Assembly (NCBI GenBank): GCA_034620365.1
Contig: JAQGEQ010000380.1
Span: forward strand, 3,782,001-3,846,000
From: Pegea sp. RAD2-039
Lineage: Eukaryota; Chordata; Thaliacea; Salpida; Salpidae
Direction: 5' to 3'
Length of the DNA: 64,000 nt
Shown: piece by piece, positions 1-19,803 of the stretch
How positions within the stretch are numbered: position 1 is the stretch's first letter
Layout: each line of letters opens with the position of its first letter
Notes under the pieces: model-generated
Told to the model about the DNA's origin: nothing
What the model saw: only the letters and a program-made list of their open reading frames with translations
Database searches by the model: none
Position numbers and translations under genes: made by a program

Positions 1-1069
1 AGATTATTTGTTAATTATAATAAGATCTTTGTTAGTGTCAGAATTATTACTAGATCTTTATTTTAGGATTTTTATTTCTGCAAAATGTTACATTTTTGTA
101 ACTACTTTTTTCAATTTGTTAATAGTTTGGAAACTGATTGTTTCTTTATTCAACAAAAATATTTTGTATCGTAGCAGCATAAATGAAATGAAAATTCATA
201 TTTTATCATCGAAACTACGACATCTAACAAAAAATACTGTTATAAAATATACATGCTTATTATAACATAAGTTTATAGTTATTTTATGTTTAATTTAAAC
301 ACTAGTTAACAATTTTGGTCAAAAATACTTTATAAGTGAATGATTAACTTAAATGTAAATCGCAAATGCAGTTGAACAGTTGAAAATTAAAACAAAAGAA
401 ATATATTTTTATATCTTTAAATTTTTGAGTTAGTTCTCGTAATCTTTATCTCAAATAAATGAATACTTACAAAATTAACTTTTACTTGTTTTTTCCACAT
501 AAATTGCTTGTGCTAAGCAAAACTAGTTATCGTGAAACCAAACTTTTTTATTTAGGATGTTTACCACAATAAAAATAATCAAAATTTCTAAATTCTGGTA
601 AAATACAATTTTCAAAAAAATGGGTTTTACAAAACTACTCTATTGGAAAAACATTATTTAACAACTAGTTTAATTCACAAGCCTGGCTAAAATGGTTCAA
701 CACAATAATATTTACTCTCAAACTTAGAAAGCGAGCCAAATATAGGAGAATATTAATTAAGCTTCTGTCATTTACTTTCTTTGAATCTGGTTTTTATTAG
801 AACTATGATTTATTGTCCCATTCAAAAAATTGCATTAGTATAACTCCAAATAGTTTATAAAATGTTGATATACAAAAAATACAAACTAATATAATTATAA
901 ATTAGCTAATAAGCTTCAGCCTCTACAACAACGTCTTAGCTTAAATGCTTGTTGAAAAAATAAATAATTTAGTTCCATTTAACAATAAGTATTGGTTATT
1001 CAAAAATTACAAAAAACTTACAAAATCAAGAAAATTTGTAAGTAAATAAACACACAATTCTGATTATAA
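1..1069. other. AT-rich intergenic DNA, no gene seen
   Basis: The sequence is AT-rich and low in complexity. One open frame of 85 codons at its start is hydrophobic, made of AT-rich codons, and has no recognisable motif, so it is treated as chance. No RNA gene or repeat is recognised here. Confidence 0.6.
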
Positions 1070-1345
1070 TTTATCAAGGGTAAGTAAACCACTAAGTTTA
1101 AACAATTTTTATAACATATTTGTCAAAAAATATTGACATACTAGCATCTTATTCTTTACATCTACAACTCCTATAATAATAGTTAGTAATTGATGACATT
1201 GATCAAGAAGTTATTGACTGATATAACACAAGGTTTGTGATTTTATTTAATAGCAAATTTACATATGAATTTAGGATGAAAAGATATATATGCTTTCTGG
1301 TTAACAAATTCATTAACTAAACATACTTATAGTGTATACATCTTT
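1070..1345 (+). repeat. Dispersed repeat copy A (FoxA palindrome, outer left)
   Basis: This is one of four related blocks around the FoxA genes. Shared words read on the plus strand include AACATATTTGTCAAAAAATA, AAGTTATTGACTGATATAAC and TTTAGGATGAAAAGATATAT. It has the same orientation as copy C (7600-8034) and the opposite orientation to copies B and D. It lies roughly at the mirror position of copy D about the centre of the inverted duplication, offset by about 160 bp. No coding potential is seen. It could be a non-autonomous mobile element or a duplicated local block. Confidence 0.7.
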
Positions 1346-3072
1346 TAAATGCTTTTTTGCAACTTTTCAAATAGTTTTTTTACATAAATGATACAAGCCA
1401 TTAAACAAAGTAGTCTGGTTTATTATATAAAAAATAACATCAAACACTGTTTACAACAAACTTATTCAATCATAAATTCTTACAATAAGAGAAAAACTTT
1501 CAATTTAAATTAAGTTACATTTAGCTGAAAAATGTTGGTGTAGCTAGTAAATAATAAAAGAGATATTTTCAAATAAGACTTTAAAGCTTTGTATTGCATC
1601 AATTAGCCATTTTTTCAAAAAAAGCTTTGATAAGATTCTCAGCAACAGTCGTTTTATTATAAGTAAAAAATATAAATAAAATAAAATTACGGAGATTGAA
1701 AGACTTCAAATTTTGAGGATATTATAAACGATTAAACTTTAAATTTAAAAAAATGAAATTTTTACCAAAGATTAAAGTCGTTGCATTAGTTAAACATTAA
1801 CTTAACTTAAAGTAGATATCAAGACTTATCATAAACTATGAGCTATAAAAATATTAAGTCTTCAAAATCATAGATTCTAAAACATTATAACAACTTAGAT
1901 AAGCTGAAAATATTTTACAAATTTGAGCAAATTAGTAGTATATACATCAAAGTAATTACTTCGTCACAAAGCAAACATAAAATTTGTATTTTCAATTGAT
2001 ACCTAAAAATACGTTAAAAATAAATACACATCAATCAAAAGAAAATTCAATTTAAAATCTATAAAAACAGCTACTAGTTAGTCTTTACTATGAATTGTTG
2101 TAAAATTTAATTTTTGTAAAATGATACTTCTTCGGAAAAAGTCTTTAACAGATAGTCACACATTCTTATACGAAATTGTGATTTTTACTGAAGTCATTTT
2201 TGAAAGAATCCAGCGAAAATAAAATTATTTAGCTGATATAAGTGTTATAAAAACTCAAAACAATAAGACGTACAGCAGTTGAACAGATTTTGAAATTTAA
2301 GTTGATAAACTCATTGAGACCTTCAAAAAAATCAACAAATTCTTTCTCAACTATTCAGAAAAAATTTTTTGGTGGTTTCACTGAAATCAGTTTATCATAA
2401 AAAAACGATTTTTTAGAAACGAATTTTTATTCAGATTAAACAATGAAAATAGAAAAATCTTTTATATCAAAAATCCTTTTGAATGAAAGAAATTTGGAAC
2501 AAAAATGTTCCGATACGTTTCCGATATTTCCAATTTCAATGAATTATATGAAAATAACCAAAAGTTTTGGCAGCTAGAAAAAATTACAAATTAAAAAATT
2601 TTCTAAATCATTGACCAACATGGAAAAAATTATTCTAAAATTACTTTATGGCTGTTTATTGTAATTATTGTTTGGAATTATGGCCAACAAAAAGACGATT
2701 ATGGCAATTTAATTACAAACTAAACATGAAAATAAAGTTACTCTAAATAAATTATAAGAAGATAAAAAGGAAAATACCAGTAGCAACCATTAATACCATT
2801 AAATTAGAAATAAAAGAATATGTACAGAGTAAGTAAACAAGAAACAGGTTCCGAAGATTTACAAAATAAAATAGTAATTTTTAACAACAAATTAGTGAGA
2901 TGTCTTAAAATCTTGGTTATTAAAATACAGTATTATAAAATACAATTTGAGTGTTTGGATTAATAATTTACTTTATCCACAATTGCAGTACTGTGGAAGG
3001 TTTCAGATCGATCACTGCCACATTTCTCCTATTTTTCCCATCTTATCACTGATCCAGGATACGAAATCGTGA

Positions 3073-3343
3073 TGACGTCACTAAGCAACAGTGATGCTAT
3101 CACTAAAATTATGGTTTCAAAAAGATACGTTAAATGTGATATGAATTGTTCAACTCTTTTCAAGCTTCATGCGGCACGTGACTTGCTAGGTATACATGAC
3201 GTCACATTGCAAACATTTACTGTGTGACGTCAGCTTAAGACAAAATGGTCGATAATCATTTTACCTCTTGTGTTTGTGACATATTCTGCTATTGGTGTAG
3301 CAAGCCAGCTTGTGACGTGACGTAATAGTTCGGTGTGACGTCA
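3073..3343. promoter_or_regulatory. Cluster of four TGACGTCA (CRE/ATF-type) sites, FoxA copy 1
   Basis: Perfect TGACGTCA palindromes lie at 3073-3080, 3197-3204, 3225-3232 and 3336-3343. The last is inside the FoxA coding end and the others are just downstream of the gene. A CACGTG E-box lies beside them at 3175-3180. TGACGTCA is the consensus site for CREB/ATF bZIP dimers. Binding is inferred, not shown. Confidence 0.5.
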
Positions 3344-4878
3344 TTGTTGATGCTCATCAAGTGTTGAACGTGGGTTGGTTGTGGATCGAGTGATGGTGTT
3401 GGTGTTTGTTGAATTCGTTGGTTGTTGTCTCCATTGGACTGTTGATCTTGTTCTTGAACAAGCAAATTATGTTGTTGTTGCTGATTGCTGTTGCTGGTGT
3501 TGTAAAGATTTGCCAGATTGTTGCTTTGGTTACTGTGTGGCTGGTTGTATTGCATTTGAAAGACTTCTTGGTATGTGCGAAAGTCGTAGTTTTGTTGTTG
3601 GTTGATCAAACTGTTGATAGAAAATGGGTGTTGTGAAAACGATTGCTGATCAGTCTTCATGTTATTTGCTGTATTCATCATTGTATACTGAGATCCATTC
3701 ATTGATAAACCCTGAATAGAGTCAACAGTAGCAGCAGATGCTGTCACGTGCTGTTGAGTAGGCAAAACACTTTGGAATCCATTCGGAATGAAACTTTGAT
3801 GGTTGTTTGCAAAAGCTGTCGGATACATTAAGTGCTGGTTAGAGCTTGGAATTGCTGTCACAAAATTGGAAGGAAGAGACGGTAATGTAGTATTATCAAT
3901 TGAAGAGTTCATGCTGTTACTAGTGTTACTGTTGGCTCCATTTTGCTGCTGTTGCACTGTATCTACAGCTTCCATTGTATGAAGGCTTGTGTCATTGTTA
4001 TGTTGATCACTTTCATTTGCATTGACTAAAAGTGGCTTTGTATCAATCTGGCTTTCAACTTGATCTACAATTAGCACTTGATTTGTTGCTAGGTCATTTG
4101 TCGAACTGGTGTCTTGTCTTTCTCTGACATCATCAAGTTTTTGTTTAGTCGGCTCGTTTTCTTCCTTAACTCTAGCTTCATTTTGTGCAGCTCTAATGGC
4201 TGCCTTTTTTTCACATTTAAATCGCTTCTGGCGCCTAAGATAACATCCATTTTCAAACATATTTCCAGCTTGTGGATGCAAAGTCCAGTAAGAACCTTTG
4301 CCTGGTTTATCGGGCGACCTCGGAACTTTTACAAAACAATCATTGAATGACAAACTATGTCTGATGGAGTTTTGCCATCTTTGTTGGTTTGCTCGATAGA
4401 AAGGAAATAAATCCATTATCCACTGATACACTTCACTTAGTGTCATCATCTTGTTTCCTGATGCTTGTATAGCCATTGTTATTAATGATATATAGCTGTA
4501 AGGAGGCTTAGCATGAGTGTAGTTCCTACGAGCGTACACGGCCGCAGTGTTCTTATCTGCTGTGCGATGTGGGCCTATAGTGGTGGGAACCAAAGACATA
4601 TTAGGACTCATGGTTGCGTATGGTGGTCCCATACCAGATGAGTGTTGAGCAAACTGCGATACATTAGGTGGAGGAATTCCTGAACTAGCAATTGGGTTGT
4701 AGCTTTGCTGAATGGTCGGTTGAATAACTGAAGATTGATTATAAGAAGAAGCAGAAAGACTGATTGGAGATGTCGGATTAAAGGCTGTTGGTTGATAAAT
4801 GGTTGGCTGAGGATATCTAACTGCTCCTGCTGGTAACTGAAGCTCAGAAACTGGTGCTGTACCTGTAGGTGTAAACAT
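3289..4878 (-). CDS. FOXA: FoxA forkhead transcription factor, copy 1
   Basis: A single uninterrupted frame of 529 aa. The forkhead (winged-helix) DNA-binding domain spans about residues 122-222, from [17 protein letters not shown] through the recognition-helix segment [13 protein letters not shown] to [15 protein letters not shown], which is diagnostic of the FoxA class. A C-terminal FoxA transactivation motif, HPFSINSLI, lies at about residues 417-425. The rest is Gln/Asn/Ser-rich, as is usual for these nuclear factors. FoxA proteins are pioneer regulators of endoderm, gut and axial development in animals. No intron interrupts the frame. An AG directly precedes the ATG in TTTGTAAG|ATG and could be a cis- or trans-splice acceptor. 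It differs from copy 2 at three residues: Ala/Thr near residue 17, Ser/Asn in the NANE(S/N)DQ segment, and Ser/Gly in the NGFQ(S/G)VLP segment. Confidence 0.97.
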
Positions 4879-5064
4879 CTTACAAATAATAAAAATTCAA
4901 TCTAGAAAACAACTCTTCCTTTTAACTACTCAACTTGTTCATAAAATGTTTGATAATTGAAAATCTTTGCTTTATATTGCTTAGTAAAAAAATGAAAAAA
5001 TAATTTGAGAGCAGGTTATAAATGTCAATAAAACGTCCTCTTGTGTAACATGGAGCTCAAAAAA

Positions 5065-5096
5065 GCAAACAAAAGACGATTTTACCGAATGTTTAC
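5065..5096. promoter_or_regulatory. Two forkhead-consensus sites upstream of FoxA copy 1
   Basis: TGTTTAC lies at 5090-5096, and GCAAACA (TGTTTGC on the other strand) lies at 5065-5071. Both fit the forkhead core TRTTTRY. They sit about 190-220 bp upstream of the ATG, inside the near-identical arm, and are duplicated at 8560-8566 and 8585-8591. FoxA self-regulation is a possible reading. Confidence 0.4.
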
Positions 5097-5138
5097 CTCC
5101 GACCCACCTATCCAACCAGTTAAACTGCTTGTTAAAGC

Positions 5139-5622
5139 CTACGCTAAAGGGAGTTCACTTTTCCTTAGAATCAATTTTGTCAGATTCAATGAAATTTGAA
5201 ATAAAACTAATTCATTGACAGCTTTATTTATCATTAAACAAAATTATGTAGAATTATTTCTTATAATAATTTCGATATTTTTAATACAAAATGTTTTATA
5301 ACTCGACTTTAATTTTTACTTTATTTTATAATTCAACCAAGTTTGTTTGAAAATGACATCAATTCAGTTAATTAACTTTCTACCTGTTTCTACATTTTAT
5401 TCGACTAAGATTTGTATAATCTTTTGAAAGCAAAATCTTATATTTGATTTATTGTATAGGTTCGACACTAGTGTTAGTAATGTAAAAAGATAGTTATTTT
5501 AATTTATCAGAGATTATATCAAATGAGTTTTTATCCTAATTCATCTTTGAAAAGTTTTCTTGAGAAACACTAAAAATCAAATTTGTTTAGTAAGTAACTC
5601 ACCTAGTTTACTTATGTTAAAG
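5139..5622. other. Diverged palindrome spacer, left side
   Basis: No gene is seen. This stretch has almost exactly the same length as its mirror 8035-8517 but is only weakly similar to it. The similarity is clearest next to copy B, where CTAGTTTACTTATG can be matched on the other side. It looks like homologous non-coding DNA that has drifted. Confidence 0.6.
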
Positions 5623-6060
5623 AGGTGCTAATTATCTCCGCAAAAAAAGAAATCTGTAAACATTAGTTTGTAGTTTTTGTGTAAAATTTGTTCTTTCAAC
5701 AAATGATAAAAAAGATTGTTAATATATGTGTACACTGAAATGAATAAGTAAGTATGCTTAGTTAACAAAGTCAGTTTATATAAGTAAGTATATGTATCTT
5801 TTCATCCTAAATTTATATGTATATTTGCCATTAAATAATAACACACAAATCTTGTGTTATATCAGTCAATAACTTCATGTTCAATATTATCACCTGTTTT
5901 ATATACCTTATAAATTGTAGATATAAGGTATAGAATGCTTTTATGTCAATATTTTTTGTCAAATATGTTATTAAAACTGTTTAAACTCAATGATTTACTT
6001 ATCCCTTATATTTAACAATCAACAATGTGTACTTATTTGCTTGTAGTTTCTTGTTTTGTA
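5623..6060 (-). repeat. Dispersed repeat copy B (inner left)
   Basis: Positions 5623-5891 are the reverse complement of 7764-8034 at high identity (an estimated nine in ten bases). Paired coordinates again sum to 13,655-13,657, so lengths are preserved. Positions 5892-6060 match copies A, C and D more loosely. The orientation is opposite to A and C. No ORF is present. Confidence 0.75.
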
Positions 6061-7599
6061 TAGTGTGTACAATTTTTATTAAAACGATTTTATTATTGTG
6101 TTGAGTAAAATTTGTTGCTGTTTATTTACCAATAACACAAAACTATTTCTTATCAGCAGTCTTCTTGAGTATATAGATTTTTATCTATACCACCAAAGTA
6201 GTCACTCGCTTTTATTTATATATCTTACACTAAATTATTTTTACAGTTGAATAATCTTTTCTCTGAATTATATAAGCCTTTTGAAGAGTTTACTTTTGTT
6301 TTACTTTTATATAACACAGCTTGGTTTAAGTTTGACAATTTTAAAAATACAACTTTTAGAAAAAAATAGTATAAAAAGCTGTACATGAAATCTAACTTTA
6401 ATCTTAAGTAATTTTGATCTACTTTTTTATGACTTACTAATCATGTAATCATACCTGCAGTCGTACTGCTGCAAATACTCAGATATAATATTCTGTTAAA
6501 TTTGTTGAAATTGTAGACATTCCTTAACTTTAATTTCCAGAATAATGTTTCTTTTTAAATTAGACTTACAATTACTGATTTCAAGTATTGGGTCATTTTC
6601 TAATCAACAACTTATACCACTTTAGTATAATTAGAGACCTTAGTAGGATATAAATTATGATTTATTTGAAAACTAAATTTGTAAAAATAAATTTATTGAT
6701 TAAATAAGCTTATTATTACTATAAGTTTATTGCTGACGTATTTTTCTGTCAAAAACTGATTAACATTTTTATTTGGAACGTTTTTTAAAGTTAATCATTA
6801 ACTTAGTTGTGCATATTCTAAGCAAGTCTATAGTTAATAATATTGAAAATTGTTAGAAGAGAATAAAATACTAAGCCATTTCTGTTAAATCTGCAGATCA
6901 AACTTTCTATTCACGTTTTCTTTTAAGTTCTTTTTAATGCCAAAATCAATTTCACTAAGACACAGCTTTGTTTTATATTAACAAACTATAACTATTTCAA
7001 ACTGTTCTACCGTCATTAATGTTATTCAAACAAAATTTTTGTTATTGAGACTGCTACAAATTGTACGATTTAAAGTTTTTGTAATAAATGACAATAATGG
7101 CAAGTTTTGAGTAGTTTTTATTTATAAATATTATCAGTATACATGTAGTAATAAAAAATATTTTTTAAAGGTTTTTTAGATAACCATTTTGACTTATTTC
7201 GAGCAAAAGTAGTTCGAATAATCAATGGAGTTTTTGGATAAAGTTTGATGACTCTATTAAAAAAATAAGATAATCGATTACAAAATGATCTTTAAATTGT
7301 TTTTCTCAAATTTTACTGTTTTTTTTAATCAAATAAATCATTTGTTTCTTAAGAATTATTTAATTGAATTTTGTACTTTTTTTTCTTAAGATTTTAATAT
7401 ATAATAACTACTAAATCAGCACAATAAAATATGTTTACATCTTGATCATTTTCATTTAATATAATAATATATTTTAATTTTGCATCTCTACTTTAAAGCA
7501 GCTAATTTTTTCTTAAAAAAGTTTACTCAGTATGATTGGAAAAAGATTGATCTAACTCAACACTACAAAGACAAATAGCAAAGCTCACCAGAAAAGCGA
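6061..7599. other. Centre of the FoxA inverted duplication
   Basis: AT-rich, with no gene. Weak mirror similarity persists inward, for example GTGTTGAGT near 6097 against ACTCAACAC near 7557. The symmetry point by FoxA coordinates is near 6828. This is the divergent intergenic region of the two FoxA genes. Confidence 0.5.
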
Positions 7600-8034
7600 A
7601 TAAGCGCAAAGAAAAAGAAAAAGAAAGTAGAATTACAAGTTATTTGGATACTAGTTAAAAATCATCTACTAAACAGCTTTAATAACATATTCAACAAACA
7701 ATATTTATATAAGATCTTTTTAATTACAGCTACTAACAGAAGTTATTTAAACTCTAAGCCAGATGATAATATTGAACATGAAGTTATTGACTGATATAAC
7801 ACAAGATTTGTGTGTTATTATTTAATGGCAAATATACATATAAATTTAGGATGAAAAGATATATATGCTTACTTATATAAACCAACTTTGTTAACTAAGC
7901 ATACTTACTTATTCATTTCAGTGTACACATATATTAACAATCTTCTTTTATCATTTGTTGAAAGAACAAATTTTACACAAAAACTACAAACTAATGTTTA
8001 CAGATTTGTTTTTTAACTTGGATAATTAGCACCT
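7600..8034 (+). repeat. Dispersed repeat copy C (inner right)
   Basis: This is the mirror image of copy B. The strongly conserved part is 7764-8034, running from TGATAATATTGAACATG to TAATTAGCACCT. The part before it aligns more weakly with copies A, B and D through AACATATT...CAA...AATATT. It has the same orientation as copy A. Confidence 0.75.
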
Positions 8035-8517
8035 TTAAACAAAGGCAAACTAGTTACAAGTTAAAGAAAAGTTTAAACAATTTTAAAAACATAAAAAGTA
8101 ACTTAATATCTTAGATTATTACTAAAAATAACTTTAAATTCTAAGTTTTAAACAGTCTCGATTTATATGAACTTTTGCCTTCTATCAAAATCCCTTCTGA
8201 CAGGTTTGATAAAAATATTTTAATGTAAAAAAATTCAAGTAATATTTCAAAAGATATTAAAGCAAGATATAAAGATCGAAATTAAAAAGATCAAGTGTTC
8301 AATAAAGCTTCTACCTCAAAGTGTAAGTTTTTACGTAAAAACAGAAAGTAGCAGAATCAATTAATTTTATATTTTCCAAAAATCAATGGTAATTTTAGAA
8401 TAAGGTATTTATCAATAAAATCTTGACTGAAAGCTATACAAAGTAAAAAAATGTTTTTTTCACAACTTTCCAAAACCTACCACAAATACATCTAGAAGAG
8501 AACTTATTTCAATTTGA
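8035..8517. other. Diverged palindrome spacer, right side
   Basis: The counterpart of 5139-5622, with matched length and low identity. No gene or known element is seen. Confidence 0.6.
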
Positions 8518-8559
8518 GCTTTAACAAGCAGTTTAACTGGTTGGATAGGTGGGTCGGAG

Positions 8560-8591
8560 GTAAACATTCGGTAAAATCGTCTTTTGTTTGC
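8560..8591. promoter_or_regulatory. Two forkhead-consensus sites upstream of FoxA copy 2
   Basis: GTAAACA lies at 8560-8566 and TGTTTGC at 8585-8591, the mirror of the pair upstream of copy 1. They lie about 190-220 bp upstream of the start codon. Confidence 0.4.
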
Positions 8592-8777
8592 TTTTTTGAG
8601 CTCCATGTTACACAAGAGGACGTTTTATTGACATTTATAACCTGCTCTCAAATTATTTTTTCATTTTTTTACTAAGCAATATAAAGCAAAGATTTTCAAT
8701 TATCAAACATTTTATGAACAAGTTGAGTAGTTAAAAGGAAGAGTTGTTTTCTAGATTGAATTTTTATTATTTGTAAG

Positions 8778-10367
8778 ATGTTTACACCTACAGGTACAGC
8801 ACCAGTTTCTGAGCTTCAGTTACCAACAGGAGCAGTTAGATATCCTCAGCCAACCATTTATCAACCAACAGCCTTTAATCCAACATCTCCAATCAGTCTT
8901 TCTGCTTCTTCTTATAATCAATCTTCAGTTATTCAACCGACCATTCAGCAAAGCTACAACCCAATTGCTAGTTCAGGAATTCCTCCACCTAATGTATCGC
9001 AGTTTGCTCAACACTCATCTGGTATGGGACCACCATACGCAACCATGAGTCCTAATATGTCTTTGGTTCCCACCACTATAGGCCCACATCGCACAGCAGA
9101 TAAGAACACTGCGGCCGTGTACGCTCGTAGGAACTACACTCATGCTAAGCCTCCTTACAGCTATATATCATTAATAACAATGGCTATACAAGCATCAGGA
9201 AACAAGATGATGACACTAAGTGAAGTGTATCAGTGGATAATGGATTTATTTCCTTTCTATCGAGCAAACCAACAAAGATGGCAAAACTCCATCAGACACA
9301 GTTTGTCATTCAATGATTGTTTTGTAAAAGTTCCGAGGTCGCCCGATAAACCAGGCAAAGGTTCTTACTGGACTTTGCATCCACAAGCTGGAAATATGTT
9401 TGAAAATGGATGTTATCTTAGGCGCCAGAAGCGATTTAAATGTGAAAAAAAGGCAGCCATTAGAGCTGCACAAAATGAAGCTAGAGTTAAGGAAGAAAAC
9501 GAGCCGACTAAACAAAAACTTGATGATGTCAGAGAAAGACAAGACACCAGTTCGACAAATGACCTAGCAACAAATCAAGTGCTAATTGTAGATCAAGTTG
9601 AAAGCCAGATTGATACAAAGCCACTTTTAGTCAATGCAAATGAAAATGATCAACATAACAATGACACAAGCCTTCATACAATGGAAGCTGTAGATACAGT
9701 GCAACAGCAGCAAAATGGAGCCAACAGTAACACTAGTAACAGCATGAACTCTTCAATTGATAATACTACATTACCGTCTCTTCCTTCCAATTTTGTGACA
9801 GCAATTCCAAGCTCTAACCAGCACTTAATGTATCCGACAGCTTTTGCAAACAACCATCAAAGTTTCATTCCAAATGGATTCCAAGGTGTTTTGCCTACTC
9901 AACAGCACGTGACAGCATCTGCTGCTACTGTTGACTCTATTCAGGGTTTATCAATGAATGGATCTCAGTATACAATGATGAATACAGCAAATAACATGAA
10001 GACTGATCAGCAATCGTTTTCACAACACCCATTTTCTATCAACAGTTTGATCAACCAACAACAAAACTACGACTTTCGCACATACCAAGAAGTCTTTCAA
10101 ATGCAATACAACCAGCCACACAGTAACCAAAGCAACAATCTGGCAAATCTTTACAACACCAGCAACAGCAATCAGCAACAACAACATAATTTGCTTGTTC
10201 AAGAACAAGATCAACAGTCCAATGGAGACAACAACCAACGAATTCAACAAACACCAACACCATCACTCGATCCACAACCAACCCACGTTCAACACTTGAT
10301 GAGCATCAACAATGACGTCACACCGAACTATTACGTCACGTCACAAGCTGGCTTGCTACACCAATAG
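8778..10367 (+). CDS. FOXA: FoxA forkhead transcription factor, copy 2
   Basis: A single-exon frame of 529 aa, 526 residues identical to copy 1. It has the same forkhead domain (about residues 122-222), the same C-terminal HPFSINSLI motif (417-425) and the same Gln/Asn-rich linkers. Synonymous differences are also very few, so the identity is not explained by protein-level selection alone. The gene is divergently oriented to copy 1 with about 3.9 kb between start codons. Both copies look intact, so this is a duplicate pair rather than a gene plus a pseudogene. An assembly artefact is unlikely because the interleaved spacers differ. Confidence 0.97.
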
Positions 10368-10583
10368 CAGAATATGTCACAAACACAAGAGGTAAAATGA
10401 TTATCGACCATTTTGTCTTAAGCTGACGTCACACAGTAAATGTTTGTAATGTGACGTCATGTATACCTAGCAAGTCACGTGCCGCATGAAGCTTGAAAAG
10501 AGTTGAACAATTCATATCACATTTAACGTATCTTTTTGAAACCATAATTTTAGTGATAGCATCACTGTTGCTTAGTGACGTCA
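10313..10583. promoter_or_regulatory. Cluster of four TGACGTCA (CRE/ATF-type) sites, FoxA copy 2
   Basis: Perfect sites lie at 10313-10320, 10424-10431, 10452-10459 and 10576-10583, with a CACGTG at 10476-10481. This is the mirror of the cluster at 3073-3343. Confidence 0.5.
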
Positions 10584-10702
10584 TCACGATTTCGTATCCT
10601 GGATCAGTGATAAGATGGGAAAAATAGGAGAAATGTGGCAGTGATCGATCTGAAACCTTCCACAGTACTGCAATTGTGGACAAAGTAAATTATTAATCCA
10701 AA

Positions 10703-13700
10703 AATTGGGTTTTATTTTTCAATCTTCGTTTGGTAACAAATGTAACATTTCGTCATACAAATGTACAAATTATTCGTATTTCATTTTTTTTACTTTATCC
10801 TTTAATTTCTTTGTAAGTCACTTTTGATTACCGGGTAGAATCTGGTTTTTGTATCTAACCGTAATTCGTCAATTTCTGTTTTTCACTTTACGTTTTGTCT
10901 CCTTACATTTACAAATTTCTAATCATGATAAACTTTCAATTAAATGCCATATTTTTGAAATTTCTTGTTTGTTGGCCATGCTTCTGAGTAATATTTTAAC
11001 AAATGGCCATAAAAGTAGTTTTAGAATAATTTTTCACTGAAATCGTTTTAACGATCTTGTAAAACTTTTAATTTCAAATGTTTAACACTGTCAAAGCTAT
11101 TGGTTATTGTCACGTAATTCATTGGAAGTGGAAATATTAGCTAATTTTTATTCTAAGATTTCAGTTCTAGATATTGTTAATTCAAAAAGATTTGTATAAA
11201 AGATTTTTATATCTTTATTGTGTAATCTGAAAAGACTTTTGTGTGCGAAGGAAAGTCATCATTTCATAAAAATCTATTTCGTGAAACCACCCAAAATTTG
11301 TTTTTGTGCTATTTTTCAAAAGCAGAATTAGAGCTGATAAAAAATTTATTAATTTAGTTTTTAAAGTGTTATCGATAGTAAGTTCAAAATTTATTTTTCA
11401 ATGATAATTTAAAATTAATTCTCTTTTTAAATAAATATTTGGTTTTTGTGACTGGCCTGCTTAGAGTATGAACTACAACTTGAAAAGATTTTTGTAAATC
11501 TTACAATATTTATCTTACCCAGTTTTAATTTCATAATCAAAGTTTAACTTTGAATAAAACTTGAATAAGACCTCATCTTTTTTTTTATAAAAGCTTTGTT
11601 TTTAAAGATATTTTTCATATACTTTTCTCTTTGTGTTCTTTTGTTTAATAATTCACCAACTCAAAGAAAACTTTTGTTTGTTTAATTATTGCGTTATTTT
11701 AATGATGTGAATATAACCAAATGATTTTTTTATTTTTAATGGTGCTGTTAATTGTAAACTGTTACAAGTTATGGAGTTTTTTTTTGTTTGGAGGTTATTT
11801 ACTTTGAAACTGTCAAAGGTTGAAATATCTTATTATCCTTCATATAATCTATCATAAAGCTTGATACTAACTAAAACTTTAGTTAATGATTAACTAAAAT
11901 AGAAACCTCATCCTTTTAAGAAATTTCTAAAAAGAATTTGTTAAAAATAATTATCTATATTGTATCGAAACTTATAAATTCTAAGTTATCTATTATAGTT
12001 TCTCCCTAACTCTGTTTAATTGATTTTTGTTTAAATAAAAAGAGCTTCTAATAATAGTAAAAAACCTTTTAGTTTACATTTAGAGAATATTTTGGCATTA
12101 GTATTTGTTTGATTTTGTTTAAAGCTTTCTCTTTATATGCTATTTTCCGAGATAAAGTTTTATGTAATTTAAAATGTCTGAATTTTTTATACTAATAATA
12201 TTGATACTAGAGTATTCAATTTTTTGGTTATACATTTATTTACAATTATATACAGTAATACATATAATTTATTATACTTTTAACAAATTCATGTTCAATG
12301 TCACCATTTACCTAATGGTTTATATAAATTGTAATTGTAAAGAATAAGATGTTATATATGTAAATATTTCTCGACAAATATGTTGTAAAATTGTTCAAAC
12401 TCTTTAGTGTACTTACTTCTGATATCTGTTCATTAACATAATGTATCTATTTACTTGTATTTTATTTTGTTGGATAAGCTTGTTTTACTTTCTTACTAAT
12501 CTACTTTCTTTTATACTAAAAACAAAGTCATATAATTATTACTTGCTTTAATAAATATTGTTTTAAAGTATTTTTCCATTAAAAAAATCAATTAGTATTT
12601 AAGTTGCTAAAAAAACAAACTAAAAGAAAACTTGCAGTTGTTAAGTTAGTTGTTAATAATATTGTTCTTTGTGTTCGCTATAAGAACAGTATTATATGTC
12701 ATCTGCAGCCATTTGTTAATTGGAATAAGTAAAAATACTTACATAATACACCCGGGTATTAGAAAATAAATAATTTAAAATGTAAATCAACTAAAAAATT
12801 AGGATATTCTGGATACATTAGTTTCGAGGATTCTATGTTTTAAATTCTAACCATAAATTCCTTTTTTCCGTTTTTACGTCTTTAAATTTTACAATGTAAC
12901 AAAATAAATAGGAATAAAAGATAATTAAAAGCTTCAATATCTAATAGTAAGATAAATTTATAATAATGAAGTGTTTCTAAAAATTAATAAAATATTTTAA
13001 AAACTATAAATGTTAAAAATTGGTAATAGTTTTATAAATATTTTATACCTCAGTTTATAAAACAACAAAAATAGTAAAATTTATGCCCCAGAAAATTTTT
13101 GAAGCTTATATATTCAGTAAAAAAACTAGAAAAGATGAAATTGAAAAACGAAGAGTATTTGCAAACGTTTTACATATTTTACAATTTCTTTTGAACAGCA
13201 AATACTTACAATAGAGTGAAAATGACTAAAACTTATTTTACTTTCAAAATGAAATTTATTCCTAAGATCAAAAGTCAGTACTTATCATTTTGCAAAAAAG
13301 AGTATACGCTCAAATAAATTAAATACTTTGCTGTACACTGATAAAAGTAGATACACCAAAGGACCTCAACAACCAATTGCAAGATTACTAAACAACACAA
13401 CAAAACTTACAAATAAAATCCTCTTATTAGATTAAAAGGTTCAAACAAAAAAGTGCTGAAACAACTCAGATTAATTTCTGCTAGGGTTTCATACCTTAAA
13501 CAGTTTTTAAAGTAACTCAACTAGAATTTAAATGAAAAATGGCTTCGCACTGCTAAATGGTCTGAAAAACATTGTTGTCCTTAAAATTAATTCTTTAATT
13601 AAAAACACAAGTAAACAAATATTATAAAATAATTCTGTAACTCGATTTACAAAAGTTATAATTTGATATTATTGTCAAAAGTAATAACTGTTTAGTAAAG

Positions 13701-17784: not shown

Positions 17785-19803
17785 ATGTTGTCAGCAGCTT
17801 TCAAATGTGCTAGACCTTACTCGAAATTGCTACATGATTTCACCAACTTAAATCATGTTACCACCAATAGTGGTTTGAGTAGCATTTTAAGGCGCGCATA
17901 TTCAGAGGGGGTAAAAGGAGCTGTTGTTGGTATTGACTTGGGTACAACTAACTCTTGTGTTTCTGTAATGGAAGGTAAACAAGCAAAAGTTTTGGAAAAC
18001 TCTCAAGGATCTAGAACTACTCCTTCAGTTGTAGCTTTTACCGGAGAAGGTGAAAGACTCGCTGGAACTCCTGCTAGACGTCAAGCTGTTACTAATCCTG
18101 GAAATACTTTCTATGCTACTAAAAGATTGATTGGACGTCGCTTTGATGAGCCTGAAATTCAAAAAGAATGTAAAATAAGTCCATTTAAAATTGTCAAAGC
18201 TACTAATGGAGATGCATGGGTTGAAGGTACAGATGGTAAACGATATTCACCTTCACAAGTTGGTGCTTTTGTACTTATAAAAATGAAGGAGACAGCAGAA
18301 AGATATTTAAATCAGCCTGTGAAGAATGCTGTAGTAACTGTCCCTGCATATTTCAATGATTCACAGCGTCAAGCTACTAAAGATGCTGGTCAAATTGCTG
18401 GTTTGAATGTTCTTCGGGTTATTAATGAGCCTACTGCTGCTGCACTTGCATATGGAATGGATAAAACTGACGACAAAGTGATTGCTGTCTATGATCTTGG
18501 TGGTGGCACCTTTGATATCTCTCTTCTTGAAATCCAAAAAGGTGTGTTTGAAGTGAAGTCGACAAATGGTGATACTATGTTGGGTGGTGAAGACTTTGAC
18601 AATGCAATTGTCGAGTTTTTGCTTGCTGAGTTTATGAAGGACCAAGGACTTGATTTGAGAAAAGACAAGATGGCAATACAACGTGTAAAAGAAGCTGCTG
18701 AAAAAGCTAAAATCGAATTATCATCTTCTCTGTGGACAGATATCAATTTACCTTATCTTACTATGGATGCTTCTGGTCCAAAACACATGAACTTGAAGAT
18801 GTCTAGGTCTCAGCTTGAATCTTTGGTTGGTGATTTGATTCAAAGAACTGTGAAACCATGTGAGAAGGCAATTTCTGATGCTGATGTAAAGAAAAGTGAA
18901 ATCGGAGACATTATTTTGGTTGGTGGAATGACTCGTATGCCAAAAGTTCAATCTACAGTTGAGAATTTGTTCGGTAAAACTCCCAGTAAATCAGTGAATC
19001 CAGACGAAGCTGTTGCCATGGGAGCTGCTATTCAAGGTGGCGTGCTTGCTGGTAACGTGACGGACGTTCTTCTGCTCGATGTCACTCCACTTTCATTGGG
19101 AATTGAAACTCTAGGAGGCGTCTTTACTAAACTCATCACTCGCAACACAACGATCCCAACAAAGAAGAGTCAAGTCTTCAGTACCGCAGCTGATGGTCAG
19201 ACACAAGTTGAGATCAAAGTTCATCAAGGTGAGAGAGAAATGGCCGCTGATAACAAGCTTCTTGGTCAATTTCAACTGGTCGGTATTCCACCTGCCCCAC
19301 GAGGTGTACCACAAGTCGAAGTGACTTTTGATATTGATGCTAACGGGATTGTGAATGTGTCTGCTCGCGATAAGGGCACAGGGCGTGAGCAACAAATTGT
19401 CATCCAGTCTTCAGGAGGTCTCAGTAAAGACGAGATCGAGAATATGGTGAAGAAGGCAGAAGAATACGCCGCAGAAGACAAAGAACGTAAAGAGAAGGCT
19501 GAAATCATCAATCAGGCTGAGGGTGTGATCAATGACACTGAAACAAAGATGGAGGAGTTTAAAGATCAACTTCCCAAAGAGGAGAGTGAAAATATCAAAG
19601 AAGAAATTGAAAAATTACGTCAAGTACTCGCTGATAAAGAATCTCAGAGCACAGAATCAATTCGTGAAGCTTTCTCTAACCTTCAACAAAAAAGTCTTAA
19701 GTTATTTGAGATCGCTTACAACAAAATGGCTTCAGAAAGAAGCAATGAGAGCAAACCAGAAGACGACAGCAGTGGTGATGCAGATTCGAAGAAGCAGCAA
19801 TAA
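17764..19803 (+). CDS. HSPA9: Mortalin / mitochondrial HSP70 (ATG at 17785)
   Basis: A 672-aa intronless frame. Residues 1-about 40 are basic and lack acidic clusters ([14 protein letters not shown]...ILRRAYS), as in a mitochondrial presequence. The DnaK-type ATPase domain follows with [23 protein letters not shown] and [10 protein letters not shown]. The interdomain linker is [16 protein letters not shown], the substrate-binding domain includes [18 protein letters not shown], and the C-terminal helical lid ends in a Ser/Asp/Lys-rich tail. It is an ATP-dependent matrix chaperone for import and folding and a partner of iron-sulfur assembly. Length matches the family (about 680 aa). The ATG was chosen because it opens the presequence; an acceptor TTTTTTTAG at 17755-17763 implies a 21-nt 5' UTR piece after a cis- or trans-splice site. 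Confidence 0.97.

Follow-up and report, generated by a model that had tools for sequence, protein, structure and literature searches.

Near-identical FoxA gene bodies within a diverged inverted array, and ectopic gene conversion as their probable cause

Introduction

Two intronless FoxA genes lie closely linked, head to head and in opposite orientation, in a 64,000-nucleotide stretch of contig JAQGEQ010000380.1 (Pegea sp. RAD2-039, assembly GCA_034620365.1). The stretch, referred to here as the window, corresponds to C6:3782001-3846000; C6 coordinates refer to this contig and negative positions lie to the left of the window. FoxA is a conserved regulator with an early role in chordate endoderm and axial tissue. 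The question raised by the locus is how two gene bodies can be nearly identical over 2.2 kb when the DNA directly beside them shows no detectable homology between the two arms. The locus is a sequence mosaic, and ectopic gene conversion in an old FoxA array is very probably the best explanation for it.

The FoxA genes and their shared tract

FoxA1 (3289..4878, minus strand) and FoxA2 (8778..10367, plus strand) are each a single-exon open reading frame (ORF) of 529 aa inside an open frame of 535, and differ at 3 amino acids. A forkhead domain (PF00250, E = 2.7e-37) spans aa 124-209. In phmmer comparisons with forkhead proteins of solved structure, HNF3-alpha (FoxA1, 5e-72) and HNF3-beta (FoxA2, 8e-70) score above FoxC2 (6e-44), and by these scores FoxA appears to be the Fox class nearest to the two ORFs. 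A chain annotated as eIF3 subunit B was also matched (1e-69). Further FoxA-like loci are found on C22 (339 aa) and C47 (581 aa), both separate, diverged and with a single ORF.

The arms were compared by aligning positions 1-6828 to the reverse complement of 6829-13656. Inverted-repeat detection places the arms at 2954-5160 and 8496-10702 with 99% complementarity, and the strict near-identical tract covers 2954..5138 (minus strand) in the left arm and 8518..10702 (plus strand) in the right arm. This tract includes 335 bp past the stop codon, the coding sequence (CDS) and 260 bp before the ATG, and the alignment contains no indels and 8 substitutions in 2,185 bp, at positions 2975, 3209, 3771, 3784, 4010, 4357, 4774 and 4830. 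The initial annotation, which had described two intronless FoxA genes in inverted 2,185-bp arms lacking any indel, is confirmed on these points; its figure of about six substitutions holds for the coding part, the total being 8.

The 6 coding substitutions are 3 synonymous and 3 non-synonymous changes (A17T, S290N and S370G), and the other 2 are in the flanking parts of the tract. With 3 synonymous differences over 332 sites, dS is 0.009 and dN is 0.002. Coding and non-coding parts have changed at equal rates (6/1590 and 2/595; Fisher p = 1), and the 8 sites are not clustered (largest gap 562 bp, p = 0.72). The edges of the tract are sharp, with identity beyond them dropping immediately to about 50%, the level that the aligner returns for most of the remaining arm sequence. 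GC content at third codon positions (GC3) is 0.34 in FoxA and lies between 0.20 and 0.43 in five other ORFs, so GC-biased conversion leaves no signal here.

Diverged spacers and older landmarks

Between the FoxA1 tract and the first upstream block, designated E1, lies a left spacer (5139..5644), and its counterpart on the other arm is the right spacer (8012..8517). Measured from the tract edges to the limits of the E blocks at 5645 and 8011, both are 506 bp. The 442-bp segments compared, 5161-5602 and 8054-8495, show no detectable similarity, since 44 out of 200 dinucleotide shuffles scored at least as high in local alignment. An nhmmer search over 274 kb matched each spacer to its own location only, and a genome search with 8013-8517 from the right spacer likewise returned only itself. 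Spacers of matched length, which had been put at 480 bp, are therefore present, but the similarity previously described as barely visible is not detectable. On the 3′ side, the 181 and 185 bp adjoining the tract also lack detectable homology between the arms (116/200 shuffles reach the score).

Homology resumes farther out on the 3′ side. The far-outer blocks at 2356..2772 in the left arm and 10888..11306 in the right arm (417 and 419 bp) are about 72% identical (z = 24.7, 0/200 shuffles), and weak similarity persists beyond them (z = 4.2, 0/200 shuffles). This 3′-side homology had gone unnoticed before. The palindrome centre (6063..7669) is AT-rich, and no other match to it was found in the genome. 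The profile along the arms is thus as uneven as the initial annotation had proposed, with a near-identical tract, undetectable homology in the spacers, and homologous blocks farther out. Because collinear older landmarks flank both copies on both sides, the arrangement suggests that two FoxA units were already present before the recent homogenisation; the palindrome itself appears to be old and the homogenisation of the gene tract to be recent.

A truncated third FoxA copy

A third FoxA copy, not recognised earlier, is located beyond the window edge at C6:3779842-3780638, 1.4 kb to the left, in the same orientation as FoxA1. It retains a 90 bp leader and about 100 codons, after which homology ends, and it is without the forkhead domain and the C-terminus; its ATG opens an ORF of 112 aa. 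Over its 390-bp 5′ tract there are 2 differences from FoxA1 and 4 from FoxA2, and FoxA1 and FoxA2 differ from each other at 2. The 3′ untranslated region (UTR) of this copy differs from that of FoxA1 at 79 of 297 aligned bases (∼27%), with 87 gap columns including the ends, whereas FoxA1 and FoxA2 differ at only 2 of 335 positions over their 3′ UTRs. The simplest account of this combination would be a recent overwrite involving an old third copy. Having lost its DNA-binding domain, the copy cannot owe the conservation of its 390-bp tract to selection on a FoxA protein.

E blocks upstream and downstream of the genes

Block E1 (5603..6062, plus strand; core 5651-5892) lies upstream of FoxA1, its first bases overlapping the spacer and having weak similarity to E2 there. 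Block E2 (7670..8053, minus strand; core 7764-8006) lies upstream of FoxA2. Over the whole block, E1 and E2 are 88% identical in 389 columns, and a core of about 243 bp is 98% identical, with 4 differences in 242; this bears out the high similarity reported earlier between 5623-5891 and 7764-8034. A profile search of the 274 kb detected five E copies, a number that had been missed before, at 5645-6061, 7670-8011, 1026-1358, 12282-12472 and -863 to -454. E0 (1026..1358, minus strand) is an older copy 3′ of FoxA1, and E4 (12282..12472, plus strand), 3′ of FoxA2, is the most diverged copy detectable. The copy at -863 to -454, E3 (C6:3781136-3781550), is left of the window and belongs to the third FoxA.

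The cores of E1, E2 and E3 differ from one another at 3 to 5 positions in 242-243. Directly to the right of the core, E1 and E3 differ at 18/146, E2 and E3 at 44/133, and E1 and E2 at 50/134 positions; to the left, the corresponding values are 26/49, 24/47 and 10/47. A likelihood ratio test of unlinked versus proportional branch lengths for the core and the right part gave 2ΔlnL = 72.7 (df 4, p = 6e-15), a value that is optimistic since the partition was picked after inspection of the alignment. Judged from these alignments, the E block forms a second mosaic, bounded differently from the gene tract, which is why the conversion is called repeated.

Several identities for E were considered. A dispersed transposon is not supported, as a whole-genome DNA search with E1 gave at least 4 matches, E1 included, and all those listed are confined to the FoxA locus. 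Each core carries one forkhead-like site, which is insufficient for a claim that E is a Fox autoregulatory element. E as a 5′ exon was likewise set aside, a by-eye reading of the alignment finding no splice donor common to the three copies at the core edge. Searches for RNA families and tRNAs found none above thresholds in the window, the tRNA search having used the bacterial code.

Explanations for the mosaic

The locus would be an old local FoxA array of about 15 kb, composed of two intact head-to-head genes, a broken third copy and five E copies. The intact gene bodies would have been overwritten recently, one by the other, through non-allelic (ectopic) gene conversion, in which a break in one arm is repaired from the nearby inverted arm; the recent tract would be about 2.2 kb. 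In a separate and differently bounded tract, about 390 bp at the FoxA 5′ end may have been overwritten with the broken third copy as recipient or as donor, and a further tract may have homogenised the ∼243-bp E core in three copies. Sequence outside these tracts would have drifted past recognition, save for older collinear remnants. Repeated conversion between the arms had been the initial proposal. Conversion is favoured by the flanks, the third copy and the E mosaic, but its restriction to the two arms does not stand because the third copy is also involved.

If a segment of about 2.2 kb had been duplicated once and recently in inverted orientation, from DNA or from a processed transcript, the even and very low divergence of the tract and its sharp edges would readily follow, and FoxA-type genes are single-ORF at all three loci inspected. 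The surrounding similarity would then need separate causes. Such an event is unlikely, as each copy has older homologous blocks both 5′ and 3′ of it, at distances that match between the arms; a newly inserted 2.2-kb copy would not come with these older, collinear flanks. It also leaves the third copy, which pairs a young 390-bp stretch with an old 3′ UTR, outside its scheme. Joining of two haplotypes, or of a false duplication, head to head during assembly would be another source of near-identity, and near-identical inverted repeats are difficult to assemble. The spacers and most of the flanks are unalignable between the arms, however, and the arms are therefore not allelic versions of a single region. 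Outside the array, no DNA match above 79% identity was found in 105.7 Mb, and the locus sits on a 4.27 Mb contig, so an assembly artefact is considered very unlikely.

Purifying selection on both coding and non-coding DNA could in principle maintain near-identity in an old palindrome, since FoxA is conserved as a regulator and block E may have a regulatory function. Selection on non-coding DNA had been named as the alternative in the initial annotation. It is disfavoured by the equal rates of coding and non-coding sequence within the tract, where dS is only 0.009, and by the third copy, in which this 3′ UTR was free to diverge. The 5′ tract of that copy has stayed near-identical though the forkhead domain is missing, an argument that is weaker if the N-terminal fragment is functional. 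Maintenance by selection is accordingly regarded as extremely improbable.

Several points weigh against ectopic conversion. The limits of the tract and of the E core were fixed after the alignment had been inspected, and this makes the tests look stronger than they are. The view that the sequences adjoining the tract are drifted homologs, as opposed to unrelated DNA, rests solely on their matched length, and in the third copy the distance from ATG to E core is 599 bp, unlike the 773 and 772 bp in the FoxA1 and FoxA2 arms. With three or four E copies, the segments differ in branch lengths and not in branching order; strict topology conflict was not found among these copies, and unusual rate shifts are formally possible. 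Nor is conversion set apart from replacement driven by homology in another way, for instance by unequal exchange within the array. We infer conversion as the process, its recurrence and direction, and the use of both intact genes from a single genome.

If ectopic conversion is the cause, concerted evolution can reach an early developmental regulator, and near-identity at the FoxA array says little about the age of the duplication. Being compact and having a broken copy inside the array as a control, the locus may also be suited to measuring conversion tracts.

Comparison with known systems

The mechanism is known, and the published cases are given here as presented in excerpts of the cited papers. 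The palindromic Hsp70 and amylase pairs of Drosophila are described as cases of ectopic gene conversion (PMC3924832), and the inverted heat-shock genes of Caenorhabditis elegans as examples of the same process (PMC3966223). Conversion has been inferred for linked inverted paralogs in the Dlx pair of Capitella teleta (PMC3199776), and in mammalian sex-chromosome palindromes it keeps arm-to-arm identity at >99% (PMC3723533, PMC8981503).

Like the FoxA genes, Drosophila Hsp70Aa/Ab and Hsp70Ba/Bb are adjacent mirror-image paralogs with near-identical bodies attributed to ectopic conversion (PMC3924832). They are heat-shock genes, with the case backed by orthologs and shared polymorphisms, whereas FoxA encodes a developmental transcription factor and is seen in one genome; in the FoxA array a broken third copy also takes part. 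Amy-p and Amy-d of Drosophila are palindromic too, with homogenised coding sequence and flanks that evolve independently (PMC3924832). The FoxA tract differs in reaching beyond the CDS, by 260 bp on the 5′ side and 335 bp on the 3′ side, with a separate upstream block in addition. The Capitella Dlx genes resemble FoxA in being close, inverted paralogs of a developmental transcription factor for which conversion was inferred (PMC3199776), and the FoxA pair is set apart by its head-to-head arrangement and 2.2 kb tract. Mammalian palindromes are large and >99% identical over whole arms, in contrast to FoxA, where identity is confined to inner tracts and the rest of the arms has diverged.

A search of open-licence literature found nothing combining FoxA, inverted duplication and gene conversion, which does not imply absence from print. 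Among the top open-licence matches for FoxA and concerted evolution, none was about FoxA by title, and none of those on concerted evolution in tunicates concerned such a FoxA case by title. The FoxA array with its broken internal copy adds a new example to these precedents, in an unusual gene for the process.

A distant mtHsp70 pair

An intronless mitochondrial Hsp70 gene (mtHsp70) is located at 17785-19803 in the window, and a second copy is found on the opposite strand at C6:2094990-2097005, 1.7 Mb away. Their coding sequences differ at 19 of 2019 positions, 16 of them synonymous and the other three in two codons near the end, with dS of 0.037. The aligned UTRs are ∼66-72% identical, the value varying with the treatment of gaps, and beyond these global alignment gives ∼50-60%. 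Since this pair shows a similar pattern at a distance of 1.7 Mb, it suggests that homogenisation in this genome may not be tied to palindrome geometry, mtHsp70 being one extra gene checked and not a survey. A third mtHsp70 fragment is present near C6:3293028 (129 columns, 94.6%).

A broader explanation would be that in this AT-rich tunicate intronless duplicates have their gene bodies homogenised whatever the distance between them, within the array of about 15 kb for FoxA and over 1.7 Mb for mtHsp70, where the limit falls almost exactly at the ends of the coding sequence. Reverse-transcribed mRNA could be the template in place of the neighbouring DNA arm. We regard this explanation as improbable. 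Were an RNA template used at FoxA, the E core would correspond to a 5′ exon and the spacer, which lacks homology, to an intron; matching of the exons but not of the spacer would then follow, as would the absence of introns from the duplicates.

Genome markers and other repeats

The fusion of CesA and GH6 is a tunicate feature. In this genome, C14:72156-74718 contains a cellulose-synthase-like GT2 domain (39.2 bits, with a QxxRW-type motif; 72156) and a GH6 domain (74494) on the same strand, 2 kb apart, the GH6 match being weak at 27.5 bits against a cut-off of 27. Two homeodomains on C235, 22 kb apart, presumably resemble Hox12 and Hox13, and one homeodomain of the genome is taken to be Xlox-like by class. 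The cellulose-synthase-like and GH6 domains and the Hox content probably point to a tunicate. A rotifer source is disfavoured by the Xlox-like homeodomain, since Xlox is reported to be missing from rotifers (PMC13161344). Mitochondrial COX1 had no match in the assembly. Excerpts of the literature report cellulose synthase from all tunicate genomes and not from other animal genomes (PMC6523144), and describe Hox12-Hox13 linkage in Corella (PMC7337526).

Repeats of other kinds occur on the same contig. A direct duplication of about 3.9 kb (C6:3884675-3888604 and C6:3890221-3894129) is 97% identical and includes three consecutive 250-bp bins without differences. The region C6:3672001-3681240 contains repeats at offsets of ∼647 bp and multiples thereof, with copies 96-98% alike. 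A short dispersed repeat at about 12655-12750 in the window recurs with 76-87% identity at at least 27 other places in the genome.

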